DNA of 64,000 bases from Fusobacteria bacterium ZRK30 (GTDB lineage: Bacteria; Fusobacteriota; Fusobacteriia; Fusobacteriales; Fusobacteriaceae): NCBI GenBank assembly GCA_024628785.1, contig CP102405.1, positions 496,001-560,000 on the forward strand, read 5' to 3'. The notes under the pieces were generated by a model. That model ran no database searches. It was given only the letters and a program-made list of their open reading frames with translations, and was not told the origin of the DNA. Below are positions 1 through 57,807 of this stretch, piece after piece. Within the stretch, counting starts at the first letter, position 1. Each line of letters starts with the position of its first letter. Position numbers and translations under genes: made by a program.

Positions 1-1244
<1,244 letters not shown>

Positions 1245-1528
1245 AAGGAGCACTTTATGAGACCATGCAAATGGTATTACATAAAGAATATTTATACTGC
1301 TCTTTCTCTATTTATTTGGTAATGTTCTCTTTTTTGAGAGAAAATACCAGTTGGACATTGAAAACTATATAGTAATGAAATAATAAATTAACAATTTTAT
1401 TAGATCTTCAGTTACACGAGAGTGTAACAATAATTAACGAAGAGTTAGAAATAACTGAACGATAATTAGATTTCAAAAATTCTAAAAACAAATTAAGCAA
1501 AAAATATTAAAATTCTATTTTAATAATA
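1245..1528 (+). other. 16S-23S internal transcribed spacer without tRNA
   Basis: This 284-base spacer holds no tRNA cloverleaf, whereas many bacteria carry tRNA-Ile or tRNA-Ala here. It contains a hairpin at about 1318-1349 and a perfect 7-bp stem with a GAGA loop at 1411-1428. Positions 1355-1377 are almost fully complementary to 4501-4523 beyond the 23S gene, with one G-G mismatch and one G-T wobble in 23 pairs. This is the expected long-range stem that RNase III cuts to release pre-23S rRNA; the enzyme assignment is inference. Confidence 0.85.
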
Positions 1529-4467
<2,939 letters not shown>

Positions 4468-4500
4468 AAGTAAATGATTTTTAGAAAGTTAATTTATGAA

Positions 4501-4523
4501 ACATTATTATATAGTTTTGAATG
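4501..4523 (+). other. 3' arm of the pre-23S processing stem
   Basis: These 23 bases are complementary to 1355-1377 upstream of 23S with one mismatch and one wobble. The two arms would close a stalk around the 23S precursor. The pairing is seen directly; the RNase III role is known for this arrangement in other bacteria. Confidence 0.75.
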
Positions 4524-4550
4524 TTTAACAATATTCAATAAGAAAGTAAG

Positions 4551-4666
4551 CTTGGTAAGAAAAGCTACGGGGGTACACCTGGTCACATTCCGAACCCAGA
4601 AGTTAAGTCCGTAAACGCCGAAAGTACTTAGGGGGCAGCCCCTTGGGAGGATAGGAACTTGCCAAG
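4551..4666 (+). rRNA. rrf: 5S ribosomal RNA
   Basis: About 116 bases closed by a terminal stem (CTTGG at 4551 with CCAAG at 4662). The conserved loop containing CCGAACCCAGAAGTTAAG lies near 4589-4606. It follows 23S directly and is followed by tRNA-Lys. Confidence 0.95.
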
Positions 4667-4691
4667 TCTTTTTTATTTTTTGTAAAAATAT

Positions 4692-4767
4692 GCGCCACTA
4701 GCTCAGCTGGTAGAGCACTCGACTTTTAATCGAGTTGTCACAGGTTCAAACCCTGTGTGGCGCACCA
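4692..4767 (+). tRNA. tRNA-Lys(TTT)
   Basis: Full cloverleaf with acceptor GCGCCAC/GTGGCGC, anticodon TTT and encoded CCA. It is identical over 76 bases to the lysine tRNA in the large array at 20066-20141. It lies 25 bases behind 5S and is probably cotranscribed with the rRNA. Confidence 0.97.
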
Positions 4768-4787
4768 TAACCAATATAAATACCGGA

Positions 4788-4817
4788 GTCATCAATTAAT
4801 TTTGATGGCTTTTTTTG
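4788..4817 (+). terminator. Terminator of the rRNA-tRNA operon
   Basis: An 8-bp stem (GTCATCAA with TTGATGGC, one G-T pair) and a short loop are followed by seven T residues, just after tRNA-Lys. Confidence 0.85.
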
Positions 4818-4908
4818 TTATTTTATTTTTTATAAAACTTGAAAAAAGTAGATACAAAAACATGAAATTACTATATAATATATTTAATAAAAAAAGGGGG
4901 AGATAATT

Positions 4909-6129
4909 ATGAGAAAGAAATTAGAAGAATACGCAGAATTAGCAATAAAAACAGGAGTAAATGTACAGAAAGATCAAATAGTAAGTATAAATGCGCCAAT
5001 GCATTCGTTAGAATTTGTAAGGGAATTAAGTAAAATAGCTTATGAAAGAGGAGCAAGAGAAGTAGTATACAACTGGTCTGATGATCAATTAACTCTAATG
5101 AAATTTCAAAAAGCAAATGATAAAGCTTTTGAAGAGTTTCCTAAATGGAGTGCAGATCGGTTAAATGATTTAGCTGATAAAGGAGCTTGTTTTTTGAATG
5201 TAATCTCTCCAGACCCGGAATTATTAAAAGATGTAGATGCTAAAAGGGTAGCAAACTGGTCAAAAGTGAGATCACAAGCTATAAAAGGGTACTATGAAAA
5301 AGTATTATCTGATAAAAACGCTTGGAGTATAGTTGCAGTACCTTGTGAAGCTTGGGCAACGAAGGTATTTCCTGGAGTTTCTACAGAAGAAGCTATGGAT
5401 AAATTAATGGAAATGATACTAGATATGTGTAGAGTAGACGGAGATGCTATCTCTAACTGGGATCAACATAATAAGAACTTAACAGAAAAAGTAAATATTT
5501 TAAATGAAAAGAAATTTACAGCATTTCACTATAAATCAGAAGGAACTGACTTAATGGTGGGGATGTCAAAGAAGCAATTATGGAAAGCAGGAGCATCAAC
5601 AACGACAGGCGGAGTAGTATTTAACCCTAACTTACCAACAGAAGAAGTATTCTCATTACCAAATAAAAATAAAGTAGATGGAACTTTAGCAAGTAAGCTG
5701 CCATTAAACTATAATGGAAATATAATCGATAACTTTACGTTAACTTTTGAAAAAGGAAAAGTAGTGGATTTTACAGCTGAAAAAGGATATGAAGTATTAG
5801 AAGGTTTATTAAATACAGATGAGGGAGCTAGATACTTAGGTGAAATTGCTTTAGTACAAGTAGATTCTCCTATTTCTAATACAAATACTTTATTCTATAA
5901 CACTTTATTTGATGAAAATGCATCTTGTCACTTTGCATTTGGGTCAGCTTATAAGAGCTGTATAGAAGGTGCAGAAAATATGACTAAAGAAGAATTAGAA
6001 ATTGAAGGAGTAAACGACAGTTTGGTACATGTAGACTTCATGGTAGGATCAAAGGACCTATCTATCGATGGAATTGAAGAGAATGGAATTATAACACCTA
6101 TATTTAGAGATGGGAATTGGGCAATATAG
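4909..6129 (+). CDS. M29-family aminopeptidase (PepS/AmpT type)
   Basis: A 406-residue cytosolic metallo-aminopeptidase that would release N-terminal residues from peptides. The length matches the M29 family. Likely metal ligands are E245 or E246 in LPTEEVF, E312 in GEIALV, H341 in CHFAFG, and H374 and D376 in VHVDF; their spacing agrees with the two-metal site known for the family. The ATG follows AGGGGGA by a normal distance. The gene stands right after the rRNA terminator and is followed closely by the Nudix gene, so the two may share a transcript. Substrate preference cannot be read from sequence. Confidence 0.93.
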   Translation: MRKKLEEYAELAIKTGVNVQKDQIVSINAPMHSLEFVRELSKIAYERGAREVVYNWSDDQLTLMKFQKANDKAFEEFPKWSADRLNDLADKGACFLNVISPDPELLKDVDAKRVANWSKVRSQAIKGYYEKVLSDKNAWSIVAVPCEAWATKVFPGVSTEEAMDKLMEMILDMCRVDGDAISNWDQHNKNLTEKVNILNEKKFTAFHYKSEGTDLMVGMSKKQLWKAGASTTTGGVVFNPNLPTEEVFSLPNKNKVDGTLASKLPLNYNGNIIDNFTLTFEKGKVVDFTAEKGYEVLEGLLNTDEGARYLGEIALVQVDSPISNTNTLFYNTLFDENASCHFAFGSAYKSCIEGAENMTKEELEIEGVNDSLVHVDFMVGSKDLSIDGIEENGIITPIFRDGNWAI

Positions 6130-6158
6130 AGGTCAAAAAAATACAAGGAGAAATTTTT

Positions 6159-6668
6159 ATGAAATTATCAGACTTAAAGTTTTTAAAAATAGAGCTAAAA
6201 GATCATCCTACCAGGGAATTGAAGATGGAATATATAAATAAGCCTAATGCCATAGGTGTATTAGTATTAGATGAAAAAGAAGAAAAAACTCTCCTAGTAG
6301 ACCAATACAGACCTGGGACAAATTCTCACCTATTGGAAATACCGGCAGGGATAATAGAAAAAGGAGAAACTGCTAAATCAACCTTGGAAAGAGAGCTCAG
6401 GGAAGAAACAGGATATACAATGGATGATGTAGAAATAATATATGAATCTAAGGAAGCTTTGGCCTCATCACCGGGGTACACTACTGAAAAATTGTATATT
6501 TATATAGTTAAATTAAAAAATAACGAAATAAAACCGTTGGAATTAGAATTGGATGAAACTGAAGATCTCATAACTAAGTGGATAAACTTAGAAGAGATGG
6601 AAGAGATAACTACAGATATGAAGAGTTTATTGACTTACTATATGTATATGAACAGAAATAAAAAGTAA
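6159..6668 (+). CDS. Nudix hydrolase, ADP-ribose pyrophosphatase-like
   Basis: A 169-residue protein with a perfect Nudix box near residues 67-89 (G, five residues, E, seven residues, REL REETGY). It probably hydrolyses ADP-ribose or a similar nucleoside-diphosphate derivative, a housecleaning role. The SSPGYT segment after the box resembles the ADP-ribose pyrophosphatase subfamily. I chose the ATG at 6159 because AAGGAG lies 8 bases before it; an in-frame ATG at 6117 overlaps the preceding gene and lacks a good binding site. A strong terminator follows. Confidence 0.9.
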   Translation: MKLSDLKFLKIELKDHPTRELKMEYINKPNAIGVLVLDEKEEKTLLVDQYRPGTNSHLLEIPAGIIEKGETAKSTLERELREETGYTMDDVEIIYESKEALASSPGYTTEKLYIYIVKLKNNEIKPLELELDETEDLITKWINLEEMEEITTDMKSLLTYYMYMNRNKK

Positions 6669-6680
6669 TATAATAGATAA

Positions 6681-6708
6681 AAATGGAGGATTTTCCTCCA
6701 TTTTTTTT
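6681..6708 (+). terminator. Rho-independent terminator
   Basis: Stem AAATGGAGGA with TCCTCCATTT and eight following T residues, directly behind the Nudix gene. Confidence 0.9.
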
Positions 6709-6799
6709 ATAAAATTAATAAGTGCTCTCTCTTGAAGGAATGAAGGAGAGTTTTTAGAATAAATAAAGATAAATCAAATTTTTTTTAAGGATGGTTGTT

Positions 6800-7138
6800 A
6801 TGGTAATTGAAAGTTATTTGTTTGGAAGAATGAAAGTGGATGGTAATATTTTTGATTCAGATCTTATAATATTTCCAGAGAAGGTAAAATCGAGCTGGTG
6901 GAGGGATCAGGGGCACTATCTGCAACTTAGAGATTTAGGTGAAATCTTAGATTACCAGCCAGAGGTTTTGGTTATTGGAACAGGCTATTCAGGTCGTATG
7001 GATGTAGCAGATGAAGTAAAAAAAGAGTTGGAAGCAGCCGGAATAAAGTATTATATTGAAAAAAGCAGTAAGGCTGTAGAGATATTTAATAAGATTGATT
7101 CAAAAAAAAAGGTGGGTGCTTTTCATTTGACCTGTTAA
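6800..7138 (+). CDS. Mth938-like domain protein
   Basis: A 112-residue protein that fits the Mth938-like (DUF498) family by its order of motifs: an N-terminal strand with I-E-S-Y, a WWRDQGHYLQ segment, then EVLVIGTGYSGRM and a C-terminal KVGAFHLTC. The family includes the mitochondrial assembly factor NDUFAF3, but its bacterial role is unknown. I prefer the ATG at 6800 because AAGGA ends 8 bases upstream; the ATG at 6791 would overlap that site. It is closely followed by the Mut7-C gene and may belong to the same operon as the hydrogenase genes. Confidence 0.8.
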   Translation: MVIESYLFGRMKVDGNIFDSDLIIFPEKVKSSWWRDQGHYLQLRDLGEILDYQPEVLVIGTGYSGRMDVADEVKKELEAAGIKYYIEKSSKAVEIFNKIDSKKKVGAFHLTC

Positions 7139-7148
7139 AGGAGGAGGT

Positions 7149-7955
7149 ATGGGCAGAATAAATATTAAATTTTATAGTTCTTTAAATAAGCTGTTAAAAA
7201 AAGGACGAAGGGATAAAGAATTATCTTTGGAGTTAAAGCTGAGGCAGAGTGTAAAAGATCTCATCGAGGCACAGGGAATACCGCATACTGAGGTTGGGAT
7301 GATACTAATAGATAGTAAGAGGGAGGAATCTTCGTATATATTAAAAGATGGTCAGAAGATTGAAGTATATCCTGCATTCAATGATATAGAAGAAGCAAAG
7401 TTTCAAAATTTGATAAATTATCCTAAAAAATTTATTCTGGATGTACATCTTGGAAGGCTGGCTAAATATTTGAGAATTTTTGGTATAGATACCCTGTATG
7501 AGAATTATTATTCCGATGAAGAAATTGTGAAAACAGCCTTGAAAGAGGGAAGGGTGATTCTCACAAGGGATAGAGGTATATTAAAAAGAAGAGTAGTGAA
7601 ATATGGTTATTTAATTAAATCAAATGAATCGAAGGAGCAGTTAAGGGAAATATTTTTAAATTTTGATATTTTGCCAAAGATTAAACCTTTTTTGAGGTGT
7701 ATCAGTTGTAACGGTATATTGGAAAAGGCAGACAAGGAAGAGATAATAGAAGAGCTTGAGCCTCTTACAAGAAAATATTACAATGAATTTTTCAGGTGTA
7801 CTATATGTAAAAAAATTTATTGGAAGGGTGGGCACAGGGAAAGGATGGAGGAGTTTGCAAATGATTTTTTAAAACAATTTCTTTATTCTTTAAGAGATTA
7901 TAAAAAAAATGAGTTGTTGGATAAATATAATAAGGGGGATCTATGGAAAAATTAA
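7149..7955 (+). CDS. Mut7-C RNase domain protein with N-terminal ubiquitin-like domain
   Basis: A 268-residue protein. Residues 1-80 resemble the ubiquitin-like (ThiS/MoaD fold) domain often found before Mut7-C. Residues 95-250 match the Mut7-C RNase family, with FILDVHLGRLAKYLR and the acidic TRDRGIL segment typical of this PIN-like fold. Two CxxC pairs (RCISC and RCTIC regions) form a probable zinc ribbon near the C-terminus. It has a strong AAGGAGGAGG binding site and overlaps the following NuoE-NuoF gene by 13 bases, so translation is probably coupled. A substrate is not predictable. Confidence 0.85.
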   Translation: MGRINIKFYSSLNKLLKKGRRDKELSLELKLRQSVKDLIEAQGIPHTEVGMILIDSKREESSYILKDGQKIEVYPAFNDIEEAKFQNLINYPKKFILDVHLGRLAKYLRIFGIDTLYENYYSDEEIVKTALKEGRVILTRDRGILKRRVVKYGYLIKSNESKEQLREIFLNFDILPKIKPFLRCISCNGILEKADKEEIIEELEPLTRKYYNEFFRCTICKKIYWKGGHRERMEEFANDFLKQFLYSLRDYKKNELLDKYNKGDLWKN

Positions 7956-9649
7956 AAAAAGAAGCGATGAAAAGATCATTGAAAAAATTGATACACAAAT
8001 ATTCTTTGGAAAAATCATCAATACTTCCAATACTAAATGAATTACAGGATGAATATGGAGAGGTAGGAGAAGGTATTATGGAGGAGTTGGCTCACAGTTT
8101 AGGAATCCATCCTACAGAAGTAGAGGGAGTTTATTCTTTTTATAGTTTTTTAAATAAAAAAAATGGTAAGCACACAATTCGGTTATGCCAAACAATTTCA
8201 TGTGATTTAAAGGGAAAAAAAAGACTGGAAAAACAACTTATAAATGAACTGGGGATAGGTTTTGGAGAGACTACTCAGGATGGTTTATTTTCTCTGGAAT
8301 ATTGCAATTGTTTAGGAATGTGTGATAGGGGACCGGTTTTGATGGTGGATAAAAAATTGATCTCAAAAGTAAAACCCTCAGATATCCCTTCAATAATAAA
8401 TGCATGTAAAAATAATAATTTAGATGAAAAATTTGAAGATACGATAATTTCAAATGTTCAGATAGAGGGACCTCTGCTTAAAGGGAAATTTAAAGATGGT
8501 GAAGTGCTTGAAAAAGTGGTGAAAAAATCATCTGATGACTTATTAGGAGAGATAGAGGCAGCTAACCTAAGGGGAAGAGGTGGAGCAGGATTTCCTACCT
8601 TTTTTAAATGGAAGTTAGCTTATAAACAGGAGAAAAAACCTAAATATATAGTTTGTAATGCAGATGAAGGGGAGCCGGGAACGTTTAAAGACAGGTATAT
8701 CCTGCACAAACATTGCGGTAAGGTAATAGAGGGGATGACTATAGGTGCTCATATAATAAAAGCCGAAAGGGGATTTATATATCTCAGGGGAGAATATTTT
8801 TATCTGAAAGAGATAATAGAAAAAACTATAGAAGACAGGAGAAAAAATAGATTATTGGGAAAGGGTATATTGGGGATAGAAGGATTTGATTTTGATATTG
8901 AGATAAGGATGGGAGCAGGTGCCTACATATGTGGTGAGGAAACCGCTTTAATTGAATCATTGGAAGGGATGAGAGGGGAGCCTAGAAATAGACCGCCCTA
9001 TCCGGTAGATACAGGCTTTTATGATAAACCTACCATAGTGAATAATGTGGAAACTTTTTTAGATATAAATTTAATCTTTAAAAATGGTGTAGAATTTTTT
9101 AAGAAATATGGGACTTCTAAATCTACAGGAACTAAATTTTTTAGTGTTTCTGGGGATTGTGAAGATGAAGGAATATATGAACTTCCCTTTGGGATAACTA
9201 TAGAAAAATTAATAGAAAGGGTAGGGGCTAAAAATATAAAGGCGGTACAAGTAGGAGGAGCGGCAGGGCAATGTGTTAAGGTAGGAGATTTTGAAAATAG
9301 GATAGCTTTTGAAGCGGTACCTACAGGAGGTTCAATTATCTTATTTAACGAAGACAGGGATATGCTGGAAGTTGCCCAAAATTTTATGGATTTTTTTGTA
9401 GATGAAAGTTGTGGACAATGCACCCCCTGCCGGGAGGGAAATAGAAAATTATCTAATGGATTGAAGCTTTTAAAGGAAGGAAAGTGTTCTATTGCATATT
9501 TGGAGGAGTTGATGGATCTGGCTGAAACTATAAAAATTTCTTCCAAGTGCGGATTGGGGCAGTCCAGTCCCAATGCATTTATATCTATCATAGAAAATTT
9601 TAAAGATGAGATCTTAGGAAGGTTACCAAAGGAGGAAAACGATGAGTGA
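7943..9649 (+). CDS. NuoE-NuoF fusion, diaphorase subunit of NADH-linked [FeFe] hydrogenase
   Basis: A 568-residue fusion. Residues 1-160 are a NuoE (24 kDa) thioredoxin-like [2Fe-2S] domain with CQTISC and the later CNCLGMC cysteines. Residues 165-560 are NuoF (51 kDa): the glycine-rich NADH site GRGGAGFPT, the FMN region YIVCNADEGEPGTFKDR and the [4Fe-4S] motif CGQCTPCREG with a later Cys in SKCGLGQ. It would pass electrons between NADH and the hydrogenase. In many bifurcating hydrogenases these are separate HydC and HydB proteins, and HydB carries an extra C-terminal ferredoxin domain; here that extension is absent. It overlaps hydA by 8 bases. Confidence 0.92.
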   Translation: MEKLKKEAMKRSLKKLIHKYSLEKSSILPILNELQDEYGEVGEGIMEELAHSLGIHPTEVEGVYSFYSFLNKKNGKHTIRLCQTISCDLKGKKRLEKQLINELGIGFGETTQDGLFSLEYCNCLGMCDRGPVLMVDKKLISKVKPSDIPSIINACKNNNLDEKFEDTIISNVQIEGPLLKGKFKDGEVLEKVVKKSSDDLLGEIEAANLRGRGGAGFPTFFKWKLAYKQEKKPKYIVCNADEGEPGTFKDRYILHKHCGKVIEGMTIGAHIIKAERGFIYLRGEYFYLKEIIEKTIEDRRKNRLLGKGILGIEGFDFDIEIRMGAGAYICGEETALIESLEGMRGEPRNRPPYPVDTGFYDKPTIVNNVETFLDINLIFKNGVEFFKKYGTSKSTGTKFFSVSGDCEDEGIYELPFGITIEKLIERVGAKNIKAVQVGGAAGQCVKVGDFENRIAFEAVPTGGSIILFNEDRDMLEVAQNFMDFFVDESCGQCTPCREGNRKLSNGLKLLKEGKCSIAYLEELMDLAETIKISSKCGLGQSSPNAFISIIENFKDEILGRLPKEENDE

Positions 9650-19775: not shown

Positions 19776-19863
19776 GCCTGGGTGGCGGAATCGGTAGACG
19801 CACGGGACTTAAAATCCCGTGTCCTCTGTGGACGTGCGGGTTCAAGTCCCGCCCTAGGCACCA
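19776..19863 (+). tRNA. tRNA-Leu(TAA), copy 1
   Basis: Class II cloverleaf of 88 bases with a long variable arm, anticodon TAA and encoded CCA. Identical to copy 2 at 20443-20530. Confidence 0.97.
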
Positions 19864-19883
19864 TTTAAAACACAAATCCATGT

Positions 19884-19960
<77 letters not shown>

Positions 19961-19986
19961 AAACAATTGAATAACCATATATGTAT

Positions 19987-20062
<76 letters not shown>

Positions 20063-20065
20063 TAA

Positions 20066-20141
20066 GCGCCACTAGCTCAGCTGGTAGAGCACTCGACTTT
20101 TAATCGAGTTGTCACAGGTTCAAACCCTGTGTGGCGCACCA
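20066..20141 (+). tRNA. tRNA-Lys(TTT)
   Basis: Identical over 76 bases to the lysine tRNA behind the rRNA operon at 4692-4767. Anticodon TTT, encoded CCA. Confidence 0.97.
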
Positions 20142-20146
20142 TATAT

Positions 20147-20223
<77 letters not shown>

Positions 20224-20228
20224 TATAT

Positions 20229-20305
20229 GGATCTATAGCTCAGTTGGTTAGAGCACTCGGCTCATAACCGAGTGGTCGCTGGTTCAACTCCAGCTAGATC
20301 CACCA
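20229..20305 (+). tRNA. tRNA with CAT anticodon, probably tRNA-Ile2
   Basis: A 77-base cloverleaf with acceptor GGATCTA/TAGATCC and loop CTCATAA. It resembles the Ile2 tRNA of Bacillus, whose C34 is changed to lysidine by TilS so that it reads AUA. The other elongator CAT tRNA at 20809 has the loop typical of tRNA-Met, which supports this split. Confidence 0.85.
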
Positions 20306-20320
20306 TTTATTTCAAAGTGT

Positions 20321-20395
20321 GGTCCGTTCGTCTATCGGTTAGGATTCTTGGTTTTCACTCAAGCGGGAGGGGTTCAACTCCCCTACGGACTACCA
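20321..20395 (+). tRNA. tRNA-Glu(TTC), copy 1
   Basis: A 75-base cloverleaf, anticodon TTC, encoded CCA. It differs from copy 2 only by a compensatory change in the second acceptor pair (G-C here, C-G there). Confidence 0.95.
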
Positions 20396-20431
20396 AATGA
20401 AATAAACAAACAAACAAACAAATAATTGTTC

Positions 20432-20539
20432 TAAATGATTATGCCTGGGTGGCGGAATCGGTAGACGCACGGGACTTAAAATCCCGTGTCCTCTGTGGAC
20501 GTGCGGGTTCAAGTCCCGCCCTAGGCACCATTTAAAACA
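20432..20539 (+). repeat. 108-base direct repeat carrying the second tRNA-Leu
   Basis: Positions 19765-19872 and 20432-20539 are identical over about 108 bases, including 11 flanking bases before and 9 after the tRNA-Leu gene. Identity outside the tRNA indicates a recent duplication inside the array. Confidence 0.85.
20443..20530 (+). tRNA. tRNA-Leu(TAA), copy 2
   Basis: Identical to copy 1; 88 bases, anticodon TAA, encoded CCA. Confidence 0.97.
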
Positions 20540-20557
20540 TTTATACACACATTGTGT

Positions 20558-20642
20558 GGTTGGATTCCCGAGTGGTCAAAGGGAGCAGACTGTAAATCTG
20601 CCGGCTCAGCCTTCGAAGGTTCAAATCCTTCTCCAACCACCA
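20558..20642 (+). tRNA. tRNA-Tyr(GTA)
   Basis: An 85-base class II tRNA with a long variable arm, acceptor GGTTGGA/TCCAACC, anticodon GTA and encoded CCA. Confidence 0.96.
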
Positions 20643-20645
20643 TCT

Positions 20646-20722
<77 letters not shown>

Positions 20723-20726
20723 TTTT

Positions 20727-20802
20727 GGGGATATAGCTCAGTTGGGAGAGCGCCGCACTTGCACTGCGGAGGTCAGCGGTTCGACCCCGCTTATCTCCAC
20801 CA
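20727..20802 (+). tRNA. tRNA-Ala(TGC)
   Basis: A 76-base cloverleaf with acceptor GGGGATA, anticodon TGC and encoded CCA. Confidence 0.95.
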
Positions 20803-20808
20803 AAATAT

Positions 20809-20885
20809 GCCTTGATAGCTCAGTTGGCTAGAGCACTCGGTTCATACCCGAGCGGTCGATGGTTCGAATCCATTTCAAGGCACCA
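20809..20885 (+). tRNA. Elongator tRNA-Met(CAT)
   Basis: A 77-base cloverleaf with acceptor GCCTTGA/TCAAGGC and anticodon loop TTCATAC, the form seen in Bacillus elongator tRNA-Met. Confidence 0.9.
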
Positions 20886-20894
20886 TTACAATTT

Positions 20895-20969
20895 GCTCCG
20901 TTCGTCTATCGGTTAGGATTCTTGGTTTTCACTCAAGCGGGAGGGGTTCAACTCCCCTACGGAGTACCA
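20895..20969 (+). tRNA. tRNA-Glu(TTC), copy 2
   Basis: A 75-base cloverleaf with acceptor GCTCCGT/ACGGAGT and anticodon TTC; the body is identical to copy 1. Confidence 0.95.
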
Positions 20970-20980
20970 AATTGTAATAA

Positions 20981-21056
20981 GCTCGCATAGCTCAGTTGGG
21001 AGAGCACCTGCCTTACAAGCAGGGGGTCACTGGTTCAAGTCCAGTTGTGAGCACCA
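20981..21056 (+). tRNA. tRNA-Val(TAC)
   Basis: A 76-base cloverleaf with acceptor GCTCGCA, anticodon TAC and encoded CCA. Confidence 0.95.
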
Positions 21057-21076
21057 TTTAAAACTTTATAATTTAT

Positions 21077-21153
<77 letters not shown>

Positions 21154-21174
21154 TTAAATTATAAACATATGTAT

Positions 21175-21250
<76 letters not shown>

Positions 21251-21268
21251 TATATATAGTAAACATGT

Positions 21269-21343
21269 TGGGCTGTCGCCAAGCGGTAAGGCAACGCACT
21301 TTGACTGCGTCATGCGCAGGTTCGAATCCTGCCAGCCCAGCCA
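21269..21343 (+). tRNA. tRNA-Gln(TTG)
   Basis: A 75-base cloverleaf with acceptor TGGGCTG/CAGCCCA, anticodon TTG and encoded CCA. Last gene of the array. Confidence 0.95.
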
Positions 21344-52860: not shown

Positions 52861-52879
52861 ATATAAAGTTAAAATAAGA

Positions 52880-52909
52880 AAAACTGCAGGGAATTCCTCT
52901 GCAGTTTTT
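52880..52909 (+). terminator. Terminator of the M18 gene
   Basis: Stem AAACTGCAG/CTGCAGTTT around GGAATTCCT, followed by T residues. Confidence 0.9.
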
Positions 52910-52925
52910 GTATTTAGAGATAATG

Positions 52926-52954
52926 TTGATAGAAGAAAAAATTAATACTATACT
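52926..52954 (+). promoter_or_regulatory. Promoter of the predicted selenoprotein gene
   Basis: TTGATA and TATACT are exactly 17 bases apart, about 35 bases before the ATG. Confidence 0.72.
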
Positions 52955-52989
52955 TTAATTGTATAATAAATATTTAGGTGGAGGTAAAA

Positions 52990-53742
52990 ATGAAGGATAT
53001 TTTTTCAATATACGATAAGATCAAGATACAAAGAGATATCGAAAAAAAATATTTTAAAGTTGCTCTCAACCCTGTGGGGCAATTTAGGTATACCACAGGA
53101 CGAAAAGCTTTGGAGTATTTAAAATATGATAGGAAGATAATAGAGCAGCTTCCTGAAATAGTAGCTGCTAGCTACTGTGGAACGGGAAATCCTTTTTTAT
53201 TAGGAAATATAAAAGATGGGGAAGAGATTTTAGACTTTGGTTGCGGAGCAGGGATCGATCTTATTTTTGCCTCTAAATTAGTGGGGGATCAGGGTAGGGT
53301 AGTTGGTTTGGATATGGTTTCTGAGATGTTGGAAAAAGCAAAAAAAAATATAGGCATGATGGACCTAAAAAATACAAGTCTGGTATTGTCTGAGGGTGAA
53401 AAATTGATATTTGAAGATGCTGCCTTTGATACAATAATATCTAACAGTGTTTTTAACTTAGTTCCAAATAAAGAATTTCTATTTAAAGAACTGCATAGGG
53501 TGCTAAAACCAAATGGGAAATTGATGGTAGTAGATCAACTATTTATAGGAGAAGAGATTAAAGAGCATAGGAAAAGGGTCGATAGCTGGTTTCAATGAGA
53601 GGGGGGAGCTATATCAGAAAAGGTTTTTCTGAAAATGCTGGAAGATGCTGGTTTTGTGGAAGTAGAAGTTGTAAAGGAGAAAGGCTATAATAGCTCTTCT
53701 AAAACCAGGGGAACATTGGTTCGTGGAAAGAAGGGAAGTTAA
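52990..53742 (+). CDS. ArsM-like SAM methyltransferase, predicted selenoprotein with in-frame UGA
   Basis: The frame from ATG 52990 reaches TGA at 53596, then continues open in the same frame to TAA at 53740, giving 250 residues with position 203 encoded by UGA. SAM motif I is LDFGCGAG at 81-88. C63 lies in the family segment YCGTGNP. After UGA comes EGGAISEKVFLKMLEDAGF, the normal tail of arsenite methyltransferases, where a conserved Cys precedes xxGA. The UGA therefore replaces that Cys. A SECIS-like hairpin stands 16 bases downstream. This fits a selenocysteine enzyme, probably acting on arsenite or a related thiophilic substrate. A simple nonsense mutation is the alternative. AGGTGGAGG precedes the ATG. 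Confidence 0.8.
53615..53631 (+). promoter_or_regulatory. Predicted bacterial SECIS element
   Basis: CAGAAAA and TTTTCTG form a perfect 7-bp stem with a GGT apical loop. The loop begins 23 bases after the UGA at 53596-53598. A guanine-led apical loop about 16-37 bases after UGA is the known bacterial pattern recognised by SelB. Confidence 0.72.
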
Positions 53743-53770: not shown

Positions 53771-53796
53771 TAGAATCTTCGGGTTCTATTTTTTTA
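53771..53796 (+). terminator. Terminator of the methyltransferase gene
   Basis: Stem TAGAA/TTCTA around TCTTCGGG and seven T residues, 29 bases after the downstream TAA. Its place after the second stop supports 53742 as the true end. Confidence 0.83.
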
Positions 53797-53927
53797 TATA
53801 TAATAAAAAGTAGTATTTAAATATCAAAAAAGTTGACTTTATCAAAATTAAGATCTATTATTGTGGGGCAAAAGAATTAAATTTTACTTAAATTAAAGTA
53901 AAAATATTAAATGTGGGGGAATTAAAA

Positions 53928-55880
53928 ATGGTTAAGAGGTTTATAATTTTATTGACAATATGGTTTTCATCGATAAGTTTTTCTGCTTATATCCCAAAAG
54001 ATGAAGCTATTAAAACTTTATCACCTATAGCAGCGGAGGATTATGCTGAATATAACGAGGTTTATATAATCAACTCGTTGACAGAGAGGGATAAATTAGG
54101 AGAAGGGACAATAACGACCGAAATGTATAGAAAAGTCTTGAATACCACCTCTAAAAAAGATAACTCTCTTTACTTTAATTATGATGCTAATTACAGTAGT
54201 TTAGATATAGCTGTAATAGAACTGATTAAAGCAGATGGAAAAATATTTGAACTGGATCCTAAAAAAATATTGGAAGAAAAAATAAGTGGAGCTTCTCAAG
54301 AGGCTAATATATATACAACTCAGGATAAAACTTTATCCGGGACAATACCAAATCTGGAGATAGGAGATATAATCTATACCAAAGCTGTTAAAACTATAAA
54401 AAAAGAAAGGATAGAGGGACATTTTTCAGGGGTGGTTACTCTGGAAAGTTCTAACAAATTTATAAATAACTATGAAAAACTAACTTTCCCTAAGGATAAA
54501 AGATTATATGTCCACGAGTTGAATAAGATGGGATTTAAATATGACCAAATAAGAACTGTAACAGAGGATAAACAGATATATGAATGGAATATAAGGGATA
54601 ATCAATTGGTTACTTCAGAGCCTAATATGGAGGATGCTATATTTTCTTTAAACCATATAGAGTATACAACTATACCAAACTGGGAGTATATATCTAAATG
54701 GTATTATGATCTAGTGACGCCTCACCTTACCATGAATGACGATATCAGAAATAAGGTTAAAGTTTTGACCAAAGATGCCAAAACAAGAGATGAAAAAATA
54801 GAGAATATCTTCTACTGGGTAGCTAGAAACATAAGATACCTAGGTGTAGATGGTGAAAAGAACAGACCTGGTCTAGAACCCCATGATATCTCTTATACAT
54901 TTAAAACCCGAGGGGGAATATGCAGGGATAAAGCAGCCCTTTTAAGTGCTATGCTAAATGAAGCAGGGGTTGAGTCAGACGTGTTCCTTATAAGTTCTGG
55001 ATATAGACTTAGTCAAGAAGTGCCAGTTACCTGGTTTAATCATGCTATAACGATGGTCTATGATGAAAAAGGTGAGCCGCTGCATATCCTGGATCCAACA
55101 GATGAGACCACTAAGGATTTTTTACCTAAATATGAAGAGGATAACTCCTACCTAATAGCTCGGAAAGATGGGGATACACTGAGAAGCACTCCCATGTCGC
55201 CGGCTATAGAAAATAACTCCAGTGCAGCTATAGATCTAAAGCTAGACAGTGACTATAATGCTGTGGGAACCATTGAATTTATATTTTCAGGTGTAGCTGA
55301 TGGTAAATTTAGATCAACATCTATGAGGATGAATAAGTATGATTTAGATAATTTGATAACTGGGCTTATAAACAGGGTCAATCCCAGTATAATAACGACA
55401 AATATTAAAACTTCAGATCCTAAAAATATGGATTCTAAATATACTATAAAAGCTGATATTGAGATCCCTAAATATGGAAAGAAGATCAATGACTATATAT
55501 TTATTCCCTTTAGCGGGGCTGATCCCAGTATTCACTTTATGTATGAGGAGTCAATTTCATACCCATTTTCATTATCTGAGAGAAAATATGATTTTAGACT
55601 AAGTTCACCTACAAGTTTCACTGTAAATTATCGTGTGGAATTTCCTGAAAGTATCTCAAATATCTCTGTGCCAAAACCGAAAACCATAAACTATGCTGGA
55701 TTCCAAACGGTATTTACTTCTAAAGTAAGAGAAAATATGTTAGATACTACTTATTATTTGGAAAATTCAAAGATTCATTTCCCTAAAGAAAAATATCAGG
55801 ACATAAAAAAAGAGATAGGGGAATTATCAAATAATAACAATTTATTCTTGATAAAAGAGGTGAAAACAGATGAGAAATAA
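53928..55880 (+). CDS. Secreted DUF3857/transglutaminase-like protein
   Basis: A 650-residue exported protein. A signal peptide of about 20 residues (MVKRFIILLTIWFSSISFSA) leads to a DUF3857 domain, then a transglutaminase-like core near residues 270-400 with triad C332 (GGICRDKAALL), H372 (WFNHAI) and D389 (LDPTDE). A DUF2569-free beta-rich C-terminal region follows. It may cleave or crosslink peptide bonds in the periplasm; no substrate is known. ATG 53928 follows GGGGGAA; an in-frame GTG at 53913 lies within that site. It overlaps the next paralogous gene by 11 bases. Confidence 0.86.
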   Translation: MVKRFIILLTIWFSSISFSAYIPKDEAIKTLSPIAAEDYAEYNEVYIINSLTERDKLGEGTITTEMYRKVLNTTSKKDNSLYFNYDANYSSLDIAVIELIKADGKIFELDPKKILEEKISGASQEANIYTTQDKTLSGTIPNLEIGDIIYTKAVKTIKKERIEGHFSGVVTLESSNKFINNYEKLTFPKDKRLYVHELNKMGFKYDQIRTVTEDKQIYEWNIRDNQLVTSEPNMEDAIFSLNHIEYTTIPNWEYISKWYYDLVTPHLTMNDDIRNKVKVLTKDAKTRDEKIENIFYWVARNIRYLGVDGEKNRPGLEPHDISYTFKTRGGICRDKAALLSAMLNEAGVESDVFLISSGYRLSQEVPVTWFNHAITMVYDEKGEPLHILDPTDETTKDFLPKYEEDNSYLIARKDGDTLRSTPMSPAIENNSSAAIDLKLDSDYNAVGTIEFIFSGVADGKFRSTSMRMNKYDLDNLITGLINRVNPSIITTNIKTSDPKNMDSKYTIKADIEIPKYGKKINDYIFIPFSGADPSIHFMYEESISYPFSLSERKYDFRLSSPTSFTVNYRVEFPESISNISVPKPKTINYAGFQTVFTSKVRENMLDTTYYLENSKIHFPKEKYQDIKKEIGELSNNNNLFLIKEVKTDEK

Positions 55881-57807
55881 AATGAAATTATTTTTGTATC
55901 TAACTTTGACTGCCTTTATTTTTATAGGGTGTACCAAGTCTAAGTTAGAAAAAAGTGAAAATTCAGATAAGATAGGATATAAATTTAGTGAAGTTATAAA
56001 GATTATTAAAGATAACAATAAACTTCCAGAGGAATATGCTGAATTAGGGGCAGTTTACCTGATCAACAATAAAAAATTAACTGTTCATAAAGATGGAAGC
56101 AGCGAGATCCATAAGTTTAAGGTCACTAAGGTAATTAACTATGAAGGAAAGAAAAAATTGTCAGATATAATTATAAATTACGATCCAACCAATGAAAAAT
56201 TGATCTTGGGAGAAATGTATACTGTTACAAAAGATTACAAAAAAATCTCAATCCCTAAAAATCAGAGTATTGAGCAGGATGATGAACTGGCAATATATTC
56301 GCCTTTATATGTTCACAATAAAAATAGGATAGTTAATTTTCCCAAAGTAGAACCGGGAACGTATATTATAACTGATTATACTATTAAAACTAAGTGGACT
56401 TATCCCTTAGGTAGAAACGAACCTTTTGATACTGAGATCCCGTCTTTAAATAAAACCAGAATAATAGACTATCCAAAGTCTATGAGATTAAATTATGAGG
56501 TTATAGGAGATAATATAGTTGAGGATAAAAAAGTTTTAGATGATAGGAATATCCTTGCCTTTAGTTCAAAGAATACAAGGGTTTTAAAGAGAGAGGAGAA
56601 AATGCCTATAAACCTTTTGCTGGATATAGATAAAGTTGTATATTCTTTTTATAAGGATTGGGCTGGCCTTGCTAAAGAAAAAATACAATCTATGGATAAT
56701 ATAAAAATCACCCCTGAGGTCAGAAAGCTTTCGGACGAAATAGTAGGAGATACTGGAAAAAAATCAGAAAAAATAGCTGAGATATATTCATATGTGGTAA
56801 ATAATTTTACTTTAAAGGATATATATTTGGATCAATCGAATTTTAAACCACTAAACTTAGATCGGATTATCTATCAGAAATACGGATCTAAAATAGATTT
56901 GAATGCTTTATTTGTAGGTCTTGTCAGAGCACAAAATATCAATGATGTCTATCCTGTAATCATATTGGATTCATATGCGAAAAGCTCTTCTTACCAGATA
57001 AAATATCCTATGAATTATTCTATATATGACGTAGGAACATACGTCGATGGAAGAATAGTTCTGTTAAATAGCAGATATAATTACTTGGATGCAATGGATG
57101 AAAAGATAAACTATATCTCTAAAAAAAATAACTACCTGCCTCAGGTCTATGAACCAAAAATAGATTATAAGGAGAATACAAGTTATCTTTATAAGTTAGA
57201 AGGTGACGATGCAAAGGTAGATGTAAACCTTGAATTTAAGGGGGGGATGGATAGTTTCATAAGGTATTATGGAGGAATACTCCCTGCTCAGAGGAAAAAT
57301 CTTATGGATCAAGATTTTGGCAGCTCATCTACTACGATTGTAGGGGATGCTAAGTTCAGTGATTTTATGGACTATAAAAAACCCATGAATATGTCATATA
57401 ATTTAAAAGCTGATAACTTTGTGATAGACCAGGATAAGTATTTATATTTTTCAATCTCTCCTGTGAATATTAACTTGAGTATATCTTTGGATAAGAGAGA
57501 ACATGATTATCAGATATACAATGAGATATCTATGAAGGAAACTTTTAGAATAGACCTCAGTCAGAATAAAGATATTCTAAAAACTTCAAAATTTATCAAT
57601 GGGCTGAATATTGTAAAGGAATTTAAGGTAGGAGACAGAAGTGCAAAATATAAATTTATCTCAAAACAGGAGAAAAATATTATAGATATAACCAGAGAGA
57701 TCTATATCCCTGTTGGAATAGTAAAAAAAGGGGATTATAAGGAGTTTAAAGACTTTGTATTGGATATAAAAAATCCTATGAGAGATAAAGTTTTTATAGA
57801 AAAATAG
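55870..57807 (+). CDS. DUF3857 lipoprotein, transglutaminase paralogue without catalytic triad
   Basis: A 645-residue lipoprotein: signal peptide with lipobox FIGC and C21 as anchor. The domain plan parallels its upstream neighbour, with DUF3857 then a transglutaminase-like core. Where the active-site Cys should be, the chain reads YGSKIDLNALF; the His position reads IYDVGTYVDG; and the Asp position reads NSRYNYLDAMDE. All three catalytic residues appear lost. It probably acts as a partner or ligand-binding pseudoenzyme of the active protein. AAGAGG precedes the ATG. Confidence 0.84.
   Translation: MRNKMKLFLYLTLTAFIFIGCTKSKLEKSENSDKIGYKFSEVIKIIKDNNKLPEEYAELGAVYLINNKKLTVHKDGSSEIHKFKVTKVINYEGKKKLSDIIINYDPTNEKLILGEMYTVTKDYKKISIPKNQSIEQDDELAIYSPLYVHNKNRIVNFPKVEPGTYIITDYTIKTKWTYPLGRNEPFDTEIPSLNKTRIIDYPKSMRLNYEVIGDNIVEDKKVLDDRNILAFSSKNTRVLKREEKMPINLLLDIDKVVYSFYKDWAGLAKEKIQSMDNIKITPEVRKLSDEIVGDTGKKSEKIAEIYSYVVNNFTLKDIYLDQSNFKPLNLDRIIYQKYGSKIDLNALFVGLVRAQNINDVYPVIILDSYAKSSSYQIKYPMNYSIYDVGTYVDGRIVLLNSRYNYLDAMDEKINYISKKNNYLPQVYEPKIDYKENTSYLYKLEGDDAKVDVNLEFKGGMDSFIRYYGGILPAQRKNLMDQDFGSSSTTIVGDAKFSDFMDYKKPMNMSYNLKADNFVIDQDKYLYFSISPVNINLSISLDKREHDYQIYNEISMKETFRIDLSQNKDILKTSKFINGLNIVKEFKVGDRSAKYKFISKQEKNIIDITREIYIPVGIVKKGDYKEFKDFVLDIKNPMRDKVFIEK

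Follow-up and report, generated by a model that had tools for sequence, protein, structure and literature searches.

A probable stand-alone, single-selenocysteine ArsM-like methyltransferase in Fusobacteria bacterium ZRK30

Results and Discussion

The 64,000-nucleotide stretch of the Fusobacteria bacterium ZRK30 genome analysed here (hereafter the window) carries, at 52990..53742, a gene for an ArsM-like SAM-dependent methyltransferase which, judging from comparative sequence evidence, is very probably a stand-alone selenoprotein whose in-frame UGA (53596..53598) is read as selenocysteine (Sec203). Translated with TGA as U, the gene is complete and encodes 250 aa; it has Pfam and NCBIfam matches, the latter extending across the UGA, as well as homologues that bear a TGA. 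According to our model, the UGA would be decoded by SelA, SelB, SelC and SelD by means of a hairpin at 53614-53632 to give the 250-residue protein, and failure of selenocysteine insertion would leave a 202-residue stub from which the end of the fold is missing. Incorporation of selenocysteine in the cell is something that we infer. The original prediction of a selenoprotein thus finds strong support in the selenocysteine machinery, the conserved UGA, the bacterial SECIS (bSECIS) element and the constraint across the UGA.

Gene layout and predicted product

The features of the gene and its flanks described in this section lie on the forward strand, apart from one inverted repeat to which no strand is assigned. 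The gene starts with an ATG at 52990, five nucleotides downstream of a GGAGG ribosome binding site (52980..52984), and comprises 202 codons, the UGA, and 47 sense codons that lead to a TAA at 53740-53742, which is the 47-residue continuation of the frame that had been predicted. The terminator expected after this second stop is present as well: an intrinsic terminator-like hairpin (53771..53795) consists of a 7-bp stem and UUCG loop spanning 53771-53788, followed by seven T. It was not flagged by the terminator scan, since its stem holds only two G-C pairs, fewer than the scan demands. On the other side, a terminator-like inverted repeat, AAAAACTGCAG...CTGCAGTTTTT (52879..52909), is located between a gene for an M18-like aminopeptidase and the ArsM-like gene. 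Delimited by this repeat, which closes the upstream gene, and by the hairpin at 53771-53795, the ArsM-like gene is probably a single-gene unit that is transcribed alone. A promoter-like site (TTGATA, 17 nt, TATACT; 52926..52954) follows the upstream terminator, precedes the gene and matches the consensus at 10 of 12 positions; such sites are about as numerous in the consensus scan as in shuffled sequence, and this one is therefore weak evidence.

The predicted protein possesses SAM-binding motif I (ILDFGCGAGID, residues 80-90; 53227..53259), as indicated by its Methyltransf_31/Methyltransf_25 domain and by alignment. The nearest solved structures, both by sequence and by fold, are those of CmArsM, human AS3MT and CrArsM (PDB), and the protein accordingly has a class I SAM methyltransferase fold closest to that of ArsM. 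The structure model was built from a small alignment and is unreliable at residues 192-201, the active-site loop just before Sec203, where pLDDT is below 50.

Conservation of the UGA codon

Among 98 genomes of the same phylum, the gene recurs in a congener (L018; 81% identity, a single TGA) and in two other Fusobacteriaceae (L019 and L020; 57-59% identity, a single TGA in the match). Further matches, each containing exactly one TGA, were found at 23 loci in 19 genomes of the Desulfobacterota (a set of 395 genomes, from the phylum of one Desulfobacterales metagenome-assembled genome, MAG). A search of 399 genomes from the phylum of L031 returned none at E 1e-45; it had no positive control and carries little weight. 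In the alignment, the residue-203 column is UGA in all 27 members of the resulting clan, across two phyla, and Cys in none, while among more distant homologues the same column holds either Cys or UGA and nothing else. Random residues at this position, which would have spoken against a selenoprotein, are thus not what is seen in the homologues. Likewise, a sequencing error, which the original prediction had named as a possible undoing, is not the explanation for the UGA at 53596, because the codon is kept in other genomes.

The 47 codons downstream of the UGA appear to be under the same constraint as those upstream. Relative to the congener, dN is 0.104 before the UGA and 0.098 after it, with dS values of 1.04 and 1.30, which are near saturation and hence approximate; dN/dS after the UGA is about 0.1, as low as before it. 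The congener also shares the gene neighbourhood on both sides, which by eye includes oligopeptide ABC genes, PepF-like and M18-like peptidases, a RecF-like gene and two transglutaminase-like genes.

Taken from the window alone, the open frame and the hairpin leave the selenoprotein call unsettled against chance. Of all TGA triplets in the window, 3.2% precede 47 open codons and 3.5% have, at the bSECIS distance, a hairpin of equal or greater stability; at twelve places, at least 60 open codons are followed by a TGA and then by at least 30 codons before the next stop. What raises the call far above chance is the homology through the UGA, the invariance of this codon in 27 members, the compensatory pairing described below and the purifying selection.

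A candidate bacterial SECIS element

The bacterial SECIS hairpin identified by folding and covariation (53614..53632) pairs 53614-53621 with 53625-53632 around a GGU loop (53622-53624). It was originally described as having a 7-bp stem; the stem is in fact 8 bp long, but the GGU loop does begin 23 nt after the UGA, as stated. The published bSECIS model (PMC13188914) calls for a loop of 3-9 nt, a stem of 4-16 bp, a G within the first two loop positions, a spacing of 16-37 nt and a minimum free energy of -7.5 kcal/mol or lower. The hairpin agrees with all four of the published constraints (loop of 3 nt, stem of 8 bp, GG, spacing of 23 nt, and -9.6 kcal/mol for the 50-nt segment that contains it). 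The z-score of the fold is only -1.2, which counts against it. A search against Rfam for a SECIS gave no match there, its sole return being a weak chance match elsewhere.

Comparison of the element across relatives also points to a conserved structure. In an alignment of 24 segments, selected as those with a hairpin at the same place, 98.9% of the cells are paired and changes on both sides of the stem occur at 4 of the 8 pairs. None of 500 shuffles reached these values, and structures slid along the same 24 segments were paired at 28-77%. These counts depend in part on protein conservation, because the same stretch encodes a constrained protein motif. In three members that are more distant (L081, L083 and L084), the hairpin has a shorter spacing.

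Selenocysteine machinery

A search for selA, selB, selC and selD was among the checks put forward with the original prediction, which would have been undermined by a genome without selB and selC, and all four were found. The profile search retrieved selB at 368 bits (cut-off, 242), and a tRNA-Sec (selC) with anticodon UCA is present. A single cluster (L053, minus strand) holds selD (7629-8729), selA (6197-7606), selB (4308-6206) and a yedF-like gene (3662-4255); selD has an in-frame TGA of its own, and SelD is therefore itself probably a selenoprotein. Among named genomes reached from homologues, selB is present in both tested genomes with a Sec form (Reyranella and Acidimicrobiia). Of three genomes with a Cys form, those of Marinobacter and a Firmicutes MAG have no selB above the cut-off and that of a Desulfobacterales does, such that the exchange between Sec and Cys tracks the presence of selB in part.

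Alternative readings of the UGA

UGA is a stop codon in most genes, and the homologue from Ilyobacter (L020) is damaged at its N-terminus beside an IS element, so that one could regard the codon at 53596 as a real stop, produced by nonsense mutation in a decaying gene, with the downstream frame as a remnant. We consider this very improbable: the UGA occupies the same codon in 27 of 27 clan members from two phyla, dN/dS is as low after it as before, and the stem has undergone compensatory changes. A pseudogene was rejected on account of the conserved UGA and the constraint that follows it. Even more remote is the reading of the codon as Trp or another residue through a changed code or a suppressor tRNA. 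The frame would be open under such a code, but homologues carry Cys or UGA at residue 203 and never a Trp codon, and the genome encodes tRNA-Sec together with selA, selB and selD, with a SECIS in place; a changed code was rejected because Cys and UGA are the exclusive occupants of the position.

Relationship to catalogued selenoprotein families

The idea of a selenoprotein ArsM is not new, arsenite methyltransferase being a selenoprotein family already on record. The 2026 review PMC13188914 lists, under NF008823, an arsenite methyltransferase selenoprotein whose single Sec belongs to a UxxG motif, giving Fomenko et al. 2007 as its source; the review also lists three fused families that hold two or three Sec. 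The protein encoded in the window shares with the UxxG selenoprotein the ArsM-like fold, the position of Sec in UxxG and the single Sec. It scores 173 bits against NF008823 (PRK11873, arsM), under the curated cut-off of 263, and it has no equivalents of Cys174 and Cys72 (CmArsM numbering), which may set it apart from the listed example, WP_011987699.1.

Matches that run through the UGA, from residue 1 or 9 to approximately residue 248, were obtained with NF041536 (363 bits), NF041537 (312 bits) and NF047649 (245 bits), all below the respective cut-offs of 575, 510 and 460. Residues 1-248 correspond to the first half of NF041536 (ArsM_DUF2284_UU, attributed in PMC13188914 to Haft and Tolstoy 2025), whereas the C-terminal DUF2284 domain and the second Sec of that family are missing. 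Similarly, the methyltransferase half of NF041537 (ArsM_AhpD_UU) is matched but the AhpD-like domain is lacking, and the methyltransferase part of NF047649 (methyltransferase/UXPK-star double selenoprotein) is matched but the Sec-bearing C-terminal tail is lacking. The protein is, in short, a stand-alone, single-Sec representative, from the Fusobacteriota, of a catalogued kind of selenoprotein that falls below all curated cut-offs.

This placement has consequences for annotation. Fused proteins that hold two or more Sec underlie the three NCBIfam selenoprotein models, and neither of the stand-alone proteins subjected to a full scan (that of the window and L073 from the Desulfobacterota) reaches their cut-offs; stand-alone forms are therefore likely to be missed. 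In standard annotation such genes are cut short at the UGA, and the catalytic residue is lost. An example is the Ilyobacter polytropus homologue WP_013388987.1, annotated solely up to the TGA (L090:2968-3543; NC_014633.1 699957-700532). This homologue adjoins an IS3-type transposase and some 22 N-terminal residues are missing, which suggests that it may be a damaged copy.

Cysteine positions, mechanism and substrate

Pairwise alignment to CmArsM places residue 203 at Cys224, in agreement with the original assignment of the UGA to a conserved arsenic-binding cysteine. The remaining ArsM cysteines are not retained: Ser153 (codon 53446..53448) stands at Cys174, Thr65 at Cys72, and no Cys is found at Cys44. 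At the Cys174 position, 23 of the clan members have Gly and 4 have Ser, and the Cys72 equivalents in the clan are Thr, Val or Ile. U203 and C63 are both invariant in all 27; the latter (codon 53176..53178) belongs to a motif [SA][FY]CGxGNPF, the core of which reads CGxGNPF or CGxGCPF across the clan, and is located two residues before the Cys72 position. The proposed arsenic chemistry is accordingly supported only in part: Sec does fall on the arsenic-binding Cys224 position, but equivalents of Cys174, Cys72 and Cys44 are missing. Compared with CmArsM, human AS3MT and CrArsM, the protein has the same fold and SAM site, with Sec203 at Cys224, but Ser at Cys174, Thr at Cys72, no Cys44 and no C-terminal domain.

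Selenolates bind soft metals more strongly than thiolates do. The selenolate of Sec203 would sit where ArsM enzymes hold the metalloid beside SAM, and might bind a soft, thiophilic substrate (an arsenical, or a selenium, tellurium, mercury or related species) and present it to SAM for methylation, with Cys63 as the probable second ligand of the site in place of the missing Cys174. We give this Cys63/Sec203 soft-metal mechanism roughly an even chance. A metalloid or soft-metal substrate is most likely.

The closest folds are all arsenite methyltransferases, the NCBIfam relatives carry that name and Sec203 aligns with Cys224 of CmArsM, all of which argues for a true arsenite methyltransferase, in which Sec203 and Cys63, together with a small thiol (glutathione, for example), would hold As(III) while it is methylated for detoxification. 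In CmArsM, however, the first methylation step depends on Cys72, Cys174 and Cys224 and the second on Cys174 and Cys224, and the C174A variant methylates neither As(III) nor MMA(III) (PMC3877260); all 27 clan members have Ser or Gly in place of Cys174, and equivalents of Cys72 and Cys44 are missing. A survey of ArsM proteins demanded at least three of the four cysteines at CmArsM positions 44, 72, 174 and 224 (PMC5552862), and the protein of the window has position 224 alone, as Sec, so that arsenite as the substrate goes beyond what the sequence itself can be read to say. Under the survey's definition the protein would not count as an ArsM, though it may nevertheless act in the manner of one. 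Among the neighbouring genes in the window and the congener, judged by eye from their sequences, no ars or other arsenic genes were apparent. We accept an arsenite methyltransferase as a realistic possibility, at somewhat under an even chance. An alternative, which we regard as possible if rather doubtful, is that the enzyme depends on Sec to methylate something else (selenium, tellurium, antimony or mercury species, or a thiol or organic compound) and carries the arsenite name through similarity. This would account for a clan set apart by a strongly supported branch (100/98), in which the Cys174 position is lost and Cys or Sec at 203 is kept, but the best structural matches are still ArsM enzymes. 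Extended to all 27 members, the proposal would be that the Sec clan consists not of arsenite methyltransferases but of a separate selenium-dependent family, with one selenolate, perhaps together with Cys63, acting on a different substrate; we put this forward tentatively, and if it is true, the name 'arsenite methyltransferase' given to the fused relatives is wrong.

The clan-wide replacement of Cys174, with an invariant Cys63 nearby, could mean either that a selenolate frees an ArsM-like enzyme from the need for Cys174 or that the substrate is not arsenite. We did not find this combination of an absent Cys174 and an invariant Cys63 stressed in the literature, of which the Haft family papers are known to us through the review, and we do not claim that it is unpublished.

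Phylogeny and domain architectures of relatives

In the tree, the clan and its Cys-containing relatives from Marinobacter, Salinirubellus and Chelatococcus split from canonical ArsM with a branch support of 100/98. These Cys forms possess a single ArsM-type cysteine, at the residue-203 position. Sec occurs on both sides of the branch, and the distribution of Sec and Cys needs about three changes, the root being arbitrary. The Fusobacteriaceae sequences are nested among those of the Desulfobacterota, which suggests gene transfer.

Relatives differ in their C-terminal architecture (Fusobacteriaceae L019 assigned by scan, the others by eye). L019, the sister from the Fusobacteriaceae, belongs fully to NF041536 (724 bits), and a DUF2284-like C-terminal addition with a further in-frame UGA is present in L019, L067, L068 and L086. 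An AhpD-like C-terminal domain was seen in L069, L070, L071 and L076, and a short tail with U-x-P-K or a similar sequence at its end in L078, L079, L088 and L089. No C-terminal addition is present in the gene of the window or in L018, L073, L074, L077, L081, L083 and L084. A second Sec domain encoded elsewhere in the ZRK30 genome was considered and rejected, as this genome has no DUF2284 match; the stand-alone form may, for the same reason, be a secondary reduction.

In the C-terminal regions of L067, L068 and L086, repeated PGGxU-P segments hold several additional UGAs in frame, and the products might contain three to four Sec residues or even more. A second lineage of ArsM-like selenoproteins comprises three sequences from another family of the same order (L022, L023 and L024), which have Cys at the Cys72 and Cys174 positions and a UGA at the Cys224 position; in L023 and L024 the fit to the SECIS pattern is only weak.

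Other features of the window

The window opens with an rRNA operon (1-4767; 16S cut at the window start, 23S and 5S) followed by tRNA-Lys, and 17 tRNA genes are clustered at 19776-21343. Downstream of the ArsM-like gene, at 53913-57807, lies a pair of large adjoining genes whose products are transglutaminase-like (DUF3857-type by eye) and either secreted or lipoproteins; both genes are kept in the congener.
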